Shown here one piece after another: positions 1,831 through 39,877 of a stretch of DNA of 64,000 nt. The notes beneath the pieces are model-generated. The model had not been told where the DNA came from. It saw only the letters and a program-made list of their open reading frames with translations, and did not search any database. Source of the DNA: Brenneria alni (lineage in GTDB: Bacteria > Pseudomonadota > Gammaproteobacteria > Enterobacterales > Enterobacteriaceae); the NCBI RefSeq assembly GCF_003666245.1, contig NZ_MJLZ01000020.1, positions 1-64,000 on the forward strand, written 5' to 3'. The translations under genes were made by a program, and so were the position numbers. Within the stretch, counting starts at the first letter, position 1, and the number at the start of each line of letters is the position of its first letter.

Positions 1831-2543
1831 TGTCCGAGCAATGGGCCTACCCCTGGAACGCGCCGCGCCCCGCGATCTCCGCGTATCAGGGGATCGCTGA
1901 CTCCCTTCCTTCTCTGGCGGTAAATACTACCGAGCCGCATCCCGTCGTCGAGAATCACCTTAAGCGGCTGGTATCACGCGCTGCTTTCTCCGATCTGGAT
2001 TTCGATCAGGCCGTCGCGAGGCTGGACTATTTAGAGCCTAATGCAACATTGCTGACGATGCGCCGCCGGTTCGCTGAAGCGGTGCAGGCAGAGCATCTGG
2101 CGGCATTAAAAAACTGGATGGAAACGCCGGAAGGAGTGGAAGCCCGGTTGCGCGAACAGCCGTTTTTTATCCGTGATACCTACCGGCAAAAAATAGAATG
2201 GCTGCGCACCAACCGCGAACCGCGACACGTCAGCGCCTTTTTCATGGGAACCGTGAAAAAAGCCCTGCTGCGTCTGGATGCCGTACGCACAAAACAGGGC
2301 GTGCGCGATGGTTTTGTGTCAGAACTCGCGAGCTACTGGCGGGCGCGCTGGGCGCATCTGGCCGAATTCACCAGGCGTGAAGTAATTAACGCCGGTCATG
2401 CTATCGCTGCCAGCGTCGCGGAAATGTTTGAAACTGAATGCGGTAATACTTCACCGGAAGATCTGACAAATGACGAGATCCAGGCGCTTTTTTGGCATAT
2501 GGGGCGAGAAATACTGGCGCTGCGGGTTACTGATCAGAAGTGA
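1830..2543 (+). pseudogene. A: P2-like replication gene A, 5' fragment
   Basis: This is the N-terminal 234 codons of the P2 gpA rolling-circle replication endonuclease, cut at 2530 by the Mu-like prophage. The fragment then reads into the phage end (residues DQK) and stops at 2543. It contains no catalytic motif; those are in the 3' fragment at 39878-41687. Joining 2530 to 39878 gives an uninterrupted 836-residue gene reading ALRVT-PPCWGVI across the scar, which proves that the two pieces were one gene. P2 gpA is about 760 residues. The start overlaps the dcm stop (TAATG). Confidence 0.9.
2525..2530. repeat. Target-site duplication, left copy (GGTTAC)
   Basis: GGTTAC lies immediately before the TG at the left end of the transposable prophage, and the same six bases follow the CA at its right end (39872-39877). 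The next base is T on both sides, so seven identical bases flank the element, but the TG...CA termini place the cut so that six are duplicated. Confidence 0.9.
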
Positions 2544-2606
2544 GATAAACAACTAGGAGAATCTGAGATAAATGGGATTTAGTGAAACCTTTGGGGATTT
2601 ATCGGG
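2531..2606 (+). repeat. Left transposon end with transposase-site repeats
   Basis: The terminus TGATCAGAAGTGAGATAAAC matches the inverted right terminus at 14 of 20 positions. The core GAGATAAA occurs at base 12 from the end (2542) and again at base 35 (2565). The right end carries GCGATAAA at exactly the same two distances. A third copy, inverted (ATTTATCG), lies at 2597-2604 and has no counterpart at the right end. These are the likely transposase binding sites. Confidence 0.8.
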
Positions 2607-2625
2607 ACAGATTACTGTAATCACC

Positions 2626-2646
2626 TTTCACATACTGTAAAAGAAA
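2626..2646 (+). repeat. Subterminal TTTCACATACTG repeat, left copy
   Basis: TTTCACATACTGTAAAAGAAA here closely matches TTTCACATACTGCAAAGAAA at 39800-39819 near the other prophage end, in the same orientation on the plus strand. A related palindrome (TTTTCAC-ATA-GTGAAAA) lies upstream of the internal dam gene at 14957. The role is unknown; a protein-binding site near each end is possible. Confidence 0.5.
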
Positions 2647-2677
2647 CAAGGGCAGAAAATTTAGCTCTTCTACCCTT
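2640..2677 (-). terminator. Terminator of the leftward early operon
   Basis: A 10-bp stem with one mismatch pairs 2648-2657 with 2668-2677 around a 10-nt loop. Read leftward it is followed by the T-rich run GTTTCTTTTAC. It sits just past the last early gene and before the phage end, where an early-operon terminator would keep transcripts out of gene A. Confidence 0.65.
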
Positions 2678-2692
2678 AATTTTACGGTGGGG

Positions 2693-2920
2693 CTAGTTTC
2701 TGTCATAGGCCCAACCGAGCCTAAATATCACGAATGGCACGATCAGTACGACGAAAAAAAACCGATAATCTTTTGTCGTAGGAATTAGGTCAGAAACATA
2801 GCCAATTTTGAATATGCTGACCGCTCTTGAGTCGTTCTTACGAGTCGTGTACCACAACTCAGTCGATACACCAAAACCCATAATAAAACGATTGATGGTA
2901 ACTGTTTTATCCACAATCAT
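2693..2920 (-). CDS. Small membrane protein, end of early operon
   Basis: This 75-residue protein has one strongly hydrophobic stretch near the C-terminus (YRFFFVVLIVPFVIFRLGWAY), so a single membrane span is likely. The start lies behind GAGGGG and overlaps the stop of the Mor-like gene (ATGA), so it is translationally coupled. I recognise no family. As the last gene of the early operon, it could be an accessory function acting on the host envelope, but that is only position-based inference. Confidence 0.6.
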   Translation of the reverse strand: MIVDKTVTINRFIMGFGVSTELWYTTRKNDSRAVSIFKIGYVSDLIPTTKDYRFFFVVLIVPFVIFRLGWAYDRN

Positions 2921-3282
2921 TTCCCCTCATCGTCGAACAGATCCAGACCAGGTTGTCGGCTTTTCATCACCCGCTTGTGGACTCGGTGAATCAGCTTTCG
3001 CAGGCCACGTTCGGTGATGCCGTATTTTGAGCTCAGTTCGGCCCAGTTGTTGCCTTTATGCTCGTTGTAAATCTGTAGATCACGAACCGCCAGCTTATAG
3101 ACATAGTCACGCGGGAACGTGAAATTTTGTCCGCCAAAGTGCTCGGCCAGAAAATTAGCGACGGCGAGGCCCAACTGTTCGGCGTGTTCAACGGAACAAC
3201 CATAATCGGTCGCAGTCTCTGCAACGTGATCGGCCAGCTCAGACAGCAGCTTATGGCGCTTCTCTTCCATCGTCGTGATCAT
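2917..3282 (-). CDS. mor: Mor-family transcription activator
   Basis: This 121-residue protein belongs to the Mor/C family, which in Mu switches on middle and late transcription by binding dyads upstream of phage promoters. The central segment (FLAEHFGGQNFTFPRDYVYK) and the C-terminal helix-turn-helix (WAELSSKYGITERGLRKLIH) match the family. The start at 3282 has a GAGGGG ribosome site. It is near the end of the early operon, as mor is in Mu. No separate C gene is visible, so it may act directly on the late dyads at 15119 and 23092. Confidence 0.88.
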   Translation of the reverse strand: MITTMEEKRHKLLSELADHVAETATDYGCSVEHAEQLGLAVANFLAEHFGGQNFTFPRDYVYKLAVRDLQIYNEHKGNNWAELSSKYGITERGLRKLIHRVHKRVMKSRQPGLDLFDDEGK

Positions 3283-39574: not shown

Positions 39575-39578
39575 TTTC

Positions 39579-39767
39579 ATGAAGTTTTATCAATTTCCAC
39601 CTTATGGCGTTAACGGCTCTGCGGTATCAGTTTGTCTGGAGCGCATCACCCATTACTACCGCATCAATTACAACGGAAACAGCGGTACGGTATTGGTGCT
39701 GGATACCGGCAAAGAGGTCAGCACTTCTATGAGGGAAGGAGATGTAAGAAAACTGCTGGAGGAGTGA
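39579..39767 (+). CDS. Last late gene, small protein
   Basis: This 62-residue protein (MKFYQFPPYGVNGSAVSVCL, then TVLVLDTGKEVSTSMREGDV) sits behind a strong GGAGGAT, four bases after the hub gene. It is the last gene before the phage right end. The pattern suggests a small beta-domain. I recognise no family; a virion or host-takeover role is equally possible. Confidence 0.65.
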   Translation: MKFYQFPPYGVNGSAVSVCLERITHYYRINYNGNSGTVLVLDTGKEVSTSMREGDVRKLLEE

Positions 39768-39799
39768 AACAGAAAAAATGCATGTTTTTTGTAATTCTG

Positions 39800-39819
39800 T
39801 TTCACATACTGCAAAGAAA
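39800..39819 (+). repeat. Subterminal TTTCACATACTG repeat, right copy
   Basis: TTTCACATACTGCAAAGAAA matches 2626-2646 near the left end in the same orientation. It is 52 bases from the right terminus, against 95 from the left, so the spacing is not symmetrical and it is unlikely to be a core transposase site. Confidence 0.5.
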
Positions 39820-39827
39820 TCCAGCAT

Positions 39828-39871
39828 CATTTATCGCGCTTTTTGTGGCGCATTTATCGCACGGCGCATCA
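39828..39871 (-). repeat. Right transposon end with transposase-site repeats
   Basis: Read inward from 39871 the end is TGATGCGCCGTGCGATAAAT. GCGATAAA occurs at base 12 and base 35, the same distances as GAGATAAA at the left end. The 23-bp spacing at both ends fits two ordered transposase sites per terminus. Confidence 0.8.
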
Positions 39872-39877
39872 GGTTAC
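39872..39877. repeat. Target-site duplication, right copy (GGTTAC)
   Basis: This is identical to 2525-2530. Removing 2531-39877 restores gene A with GTT ACT CCG CCG across the junction. Confidence 0.9.

Follow-up and report, generated by a model that had tools for sequence, protein, structure and literature searches.

A B3-type transposable prophage inserted in gene A of a P2-like prophage of Brenneria alni

The stretch of DNA analyzed here, called the window, comprises the first 64,000 of the 69,864 bases of one contig of Brenneria alni, from a draft assembly of 132 contigs and 4.13 Mb. It contains a P2-like prophage that is interrupted in gene A by a transposable prophage of 37,341 bp, and both junctions lie within this single contig. 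The features of both prophages are collected in Table 1. Read directly in the window, the inner element starts with TG (positions 2531–2532) and ends with CA (39870–39871), and a copy of the hexamer GGTTAC abuts each terminus. The insertion point falls in codon 234 of the 836 codons of gene A.

Table 1 Features of the two nested prophages, with positions counted from the first base of the window.
Feature	Positions	Strand	Basis
Transposase orfA of the contig-edge IS (HTH_Tnp_1)	28–360	-	Family match
dam, C-terminal part; 5′ part missing at the IS on the contig edge	400–906	+	Family match and comparison with sister prophage
dcm, with a frame change between 1514 and 1552	906–1830	+	Comparison with sister prophage
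5′ part of P2-like gene A (codons 1–234, then three element codons and a stop)	1830–2543	+	ORF; no Pfam family
Left GGTTAC copy, 6-bp target duplication	2525–2530		Sequence and empty sites
Transposable prophage, B3-type, 37,341 bp, TG...CA ends	2531–39871		Ends and 6-bp duplications of relatives
Late activator of the element, Mor family	2917–3282	-	Family match
GemA-like protein	3293–3772	-	Family match
AAA transposition protein (putative MuB-like role)	6856–8049	-	AAA_22 and phrog_296 matches
Transposase (DDE)	8030–9799	-	rve; phrog_310
HTH protein, probable repressor	12802–13167	+	HTH_3
Holin and endolysin	15030–16195	+	Family matches
Terminase subunits, portal, MuF-like protein, neck, protease, major head protein	17334–25675	+	Family matches
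Head-tail adaptor and tail module	25908–39574	+	Family matches
3′ part of gene A (residues 235–836), ORF opening at a TTG within the element	39843–41687	+	Phage_GPA
Right GGTTAC copy	39872–39877		Sequence and empty sites
P2-like late genes (portal, terminase, scaffold, capsid, baseplate, fibre, gpU, tape measure, tube, sheath)	43746–63220		Family matches

Joining positions 1830–2530 (701 nt) to positions 39878–41687 (1810 nt) yields 837 codons including the stop, that is, a protein of 836 residues. An earlier note on this DNA had claimed both the TG and CA ends bounded by GGTTAC and the in-frame rejoining of gene A; the two hexamer copies bear out the former and the arithmetic bears out the latter. 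When the two halves of gpA were searched separately, residues 1–233 and 235–836 were colinear in the uninterrupted copies of three close relatives (L003, L004 and L005) with a gap of one codon (residue 234), and the 5′ and 3′ halves were 94 and 89%, 74 and 88%, and 72 and 82% identical, respectively. The distant gpA of L007 is also colinear across the junction, with 27 and 39% identity and one codon between the halves. The colinearity across the rejoined junction that the earlier note had set as a test is thus found in these four loci; the remaining 25 gpA loci, the own locus excluded, match only the 3′ half at the same threshold.

At the DNA level, the flanks of the element overlap by the full 6-bp site in L061 (genome G004) and L065 (G030); in L064 (G001) the overlap is one base shorter, at 5 of the 6 bp. 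The empty site in G004 consists of a single GGTTAC between the same neighbours. A 6-bp match located exactly at the element ends, together with the empty sites, is not to be expected by chance. The left junction sequence occurs once in the own genome. A 5-bp duplication of the Mu type was rejected because the TG...CA ends leave a 6-bp shared flank and four relatives also carry 6-bp duplications (GCGGGG in G010, GTTTCA in G001, GCCAGT in G099 and CCTACC in G100). For G010, two candidate right ends have the same 6-mer and the one with the conserved end motif was taken; no right end or duplication was obtained for G030, G003 and G098, the last of which has a contig that seems to begin inside the element.

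The 5′ ORF of gene A stops 13 bases past the left GGTTAC copy, at position 2543. The Phage_GPA match is confined to the 3′ part, where it covers profile positions 52–321 of 321. The sequences HWHVLLF (40473–40493) and YVAKYISK (40635–40658), which we take to be the HUH and tyrosine motifs of gpA, are both located downstream of the insertion. As judged from these motifs and the family match, the insertion separates the N-terminal part of gpA from the HUH/tyrosine nicking domain, in keeping with the earlier statement that the catalytic part is cut off from the start of gene A. Nonetheless, the reading frame of the 3′ part is uninterrupted from a TTG within the element onward, so a truncated gpA that retains the nicking domain could be made from this ORF. 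The 3′ part of gpA is 63.5% and 56% identical to its counterparts in P2-like phages of the Peduoviridae, Salmonella phages SI7 and SW5 and Yersinia phage vB_YenM_42.18. The outer prophage shares with these phages Phage_GPA, the P2-type portal, terminase, scaffold, capsid, gpU, tube, sheath and Ogr_Delta, as well as a right end beside tRNA-Leu; it differs from them in that its gene A is interrupted and its left module was not found.

Family matches place transposition, regulation, lysis, packaging, head and tail genes in the inner element, with further matches to DUF3164, major tail protein, tape measure and tail assembly families. The proteins scanned in the tail module gave no match to a sheath family. 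The MuF-like head protein (21074–22354) has a C-terminal PBECR2 nuclease-like domain. On the basis of the 6-bp duplication, a JBD67-like gene order and a capsid 67% identical to that of Beetrevirus (66.9%, among the matches listed), the element is a B3-type transposable siphophage. The earlier description of the element as Mu-like is therefore correct in that the element is transposable, but the 6-bp duplication and the siphovirus tail are of the B3 type and do not make it a close relative of Mu. The target duplication of phage B3 is reported to be 6 bp compared with 5 bp for Mu in PMC8705779, which also gives TG...CA ends for B3 and a genome size of 36–39 kb for the Pseudomonas phage B3 group (Beetrevirus, e.g. 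JBD67; H71, JD18), a range that includes the 37,341 bp of the element. The element and JBD67 share the same order, in which a leftward pair of transposase and AAA genes is followed by rightward lysis, terminase, portal, MuF, capsid and tail genes.

The element also departs from this group. Its transposase is about 56% identical to those of Pseudomonas phages of the B3 group, among the matches listed, and is closer to two Escherichia records and one Klebsiella record (69–70%); some IMG/VR contigs reach 79–86%. Among the matches listed for its tape measure protein, none covers more than one third of its length. JBD67 has a Gam-like gene, whereas no Gam family was found by Pfam in the four small left-module ORFs of the element that were scanned; the ORFs at 5227–5418 and 5419–5592 lay outside the scan. 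The inner phage may thus be without one B3-type function. The claim that the element is complete stands for its ends and main modules and does not extend to a Gam-like gene in the scanned ORFs. With a nearly full set of modules, the inner prophage may still be active. A second B3-type transposase, 67% identical, is encoded in the own genome (contig C12:81409–83148); apart from the portal gene in the window, a single portal match was found, at 23% identity, so this transposase may belong to a remnant.

The outer prophage resembles a sister prophage in G004, to which most proteins from position 41780 onward are 84–100% identical over their length. The exceptions are the fibre (77% over the N-terminal part only), a 92-residue ORF that has no match, an 83-residue ORF with a patchy match, and the small terminase subunit, for which 274 of 304 residues align. 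A pair of genes encoding a ParE-like toxin and an HTH antitoxin-like protein (42504–43278) lies between gene A and the portal gene, and is 98–99% identical in the sister prophage. Past the end of the sheath gene at 63220, an ORF with a sub-threshold Phage_GPD match is followed by an Ogr_Delta protein (L050 367–615), and a tRNA-Leu gene, the probable attachment site of the outer prophage, is located beyond it at contig positions 64808–64894. The right end of the outer prophage adjoins a Leu-Cys-Gly tRNA cluster (L050 808–1091). The sister prophage in G004 adjoins genes read as cpx-like and not the tRNA cluster. In G001, two pieces of this region are about 37 kb apart (L109, L113), suggesting that another element resides there.

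Contig C69 carries a further copy of the contig-edge IS, with 99% identity, beside large unrelated ORFs. The middle part of dcm in the outer prophage differs strongly from the sister prophage. The left module (int, immunity and cox) was sought in the assembly with DNA of the G004 sister prophage, which gave a single 116-bp match; a second search with sister DNA returned a 3.9-kb match that corresponds to the chromosomal flank of the sister, plus a 134-bp match. The sister integrase (Pfam Phage_integrase) had six weak matches in the assembly, the best of which by E-value is 29% identical. In the search for the other end of the outer prophage, the 3′ end of the tRNA-Leu gene was found once. Contig C41, picked by synteny with G004, had no match to sister-prophage proteins in the first 9,000 of its 39,025 bases.

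The insertion sites of relatives were surveyed in bacterial genomes and in IMG/VR. Among 26 bacterial loci, 12 had a candidate left end and one of these (L086) was dropped because the match was on the wrong side of the transposase; the left ends of three of the remaining 11 (L080, L089, L092) had four mismatches. Together with G001, G010 and G030 these loci make 14 mapped sites, with L069, which is the G058 contig, counted once. Phage families were found at none of the 14 in the one or two left-flank ORFs scanned at each, the neighbours being transporters, regulators, dehydrogenases, kinases and the like. In IMG/VR, 80 of 100 relatives were taken and 19 had a match to the end motif; removal of the window itself (L129), a misplaced match (L181) and nine with flanks shorter than 1.2 kb left eight usable flanks. 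Two of the eight carry phage genes (L184 and L185), one an integrase ORF (L149), three bacterial families (L130, L148, L205) and two no family (L131, L153). The B3-type left end in UViG_2660237954_000004 (L184/L208) adjoins P2-like lysozyme, lysis and R genes and an Abi-alpha-like gene. In UViG_2751185937_000007 (L185, L209/L210), a B3-type element is located between primase/repressor-like genes and a protease-portal-terminase run, an order that, we presume, resembles that of capsid-forming satellites. Because IMG/VR picks contigs for their viral content, these flanks indicate that nesting recurs and not that it is preferred.

The nested insertion is real, and both of its junctions lie inside one resident prophage. 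An assembly artefact that fused two prophages might be suspected in a draft genome of this many contigs, but the ends, the duplication and the empty site agree to the base, which a misjoin is not expected to produce, and we consider such an artefact highly unlikely. The account that we favor, and hold to be highly probable as a whole, is a chance insertion of a B3-type phage that split gene A of a P2-like resident. A B3-type phage would have infected a lysogen of the P2-like phage and transposed into codon 234 of the resident gene A with duplication of 6 bp of target, a step evident from the anatomy of the locus. The site is probably a single sample from a scattered set of targets, and the host would have tolerated the insertion because it has no need of the interrupted gene. 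The opposing proposal is that B3-type phages repeatedly and preferentially insert in resident P2-like prophages and gain from it, such that breaking the replication or lysis region is a form of selected competition. The second B3-type element beside P2-like lysozyme, lysis and R genes and the third among capsid-terminase genes are in its favor, and if it were true, the two cases of a B3-type element within a P2-like prophage would be early examples. We nevertheless find it very unlikely, given the lack of phage genes in the scanned flank ORFs of the 14 bacterial sites, the choice of IMG/VR contigs for viral content, and the different place of the second P2-like case.

With gpA split, the P2-like prophage would lack the normal initiator, and very probably it can no longer replicate. 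Because P2 gpA acts in cis, rescue of this prophage by a co-infecting phage might fail. Measured from int through the ogr-like ORF, the G004 sister prophage is about 32 kb long, which would put the composite near 70 kb. A genome of this length would exceed the capacity of a P2-sized head, although this would be secondary once gpA is broken. That one phage disarmed the other, as the earlier note put it, is a fair description of a likely consequence and not of an aim; it is too strong as a statement of intent because relatives insert at unrelated chromosomal sites, and the outer prophage has other lesions as well. These lesions leave room for the P2-like prophage having been defective before the B3-type phage arrived, in which case the insertion disarmed nothing. 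The cut of dam at the contig-edge IS, the frame change in dcm and the failure to find in the assembly the int gene and left module known from the sister prophage all point that way, as does the apparently defective state of all host prophages reported in a study of nested prophages in E. coli (PMC8112680). Set against this, most late genes are unbroken and 84–100% identical to those of the sister, both parts of gene A are open, and the left side may be on another contig with a different sequence. The dam and dcm genes of the outer prophage are presumably accessory, which also weighs against a prior defect. We regard a prior defect as a substantial possibility, although we lean toward a resident that the insertion disabled.

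Integration of one prophage within another has been published for STEC and EPEC, and the Brenneria case has the look of a routine insertion by chance, of a kind already known. In that study, integration is reported at attB sites carried by resident prophages, which are all apparently defective (PMC8112680), in contrast to the transposition with a 6-bp scar in Brenneria. Elsewhere, P2-like and Mu-like prophages are treated as separate in PMC2669165, and a Mu-like phage is placed at a site named RGP 97 in PMC7344871. Among the matches listed from the open literature, judged by titles and the starts of abstracts, no transposable prophage inside a P2-like prophage was recognized. The locus provides a base-exact case in which one prophage breaks into the replication gene of a second, and relatives supply the empty sites. 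Nested cases of this kind can be counted, which bears on whether transposing phages avoid, prefer or ignore resident prophages.

There is also a practical warning for users of virus databases. The IMG/VR record UViG_2835052945_000005 (64,342 bp) presents both nested prophages as one virus, such that any size, gene content or taxonomic placement taken from this record mixes two phages. The record starts at window position 274, and the 17,526 of its bases that were compared match the window exactly. By its length it ends at contig position 64615, and a P2-type terminase is found at the matching place.
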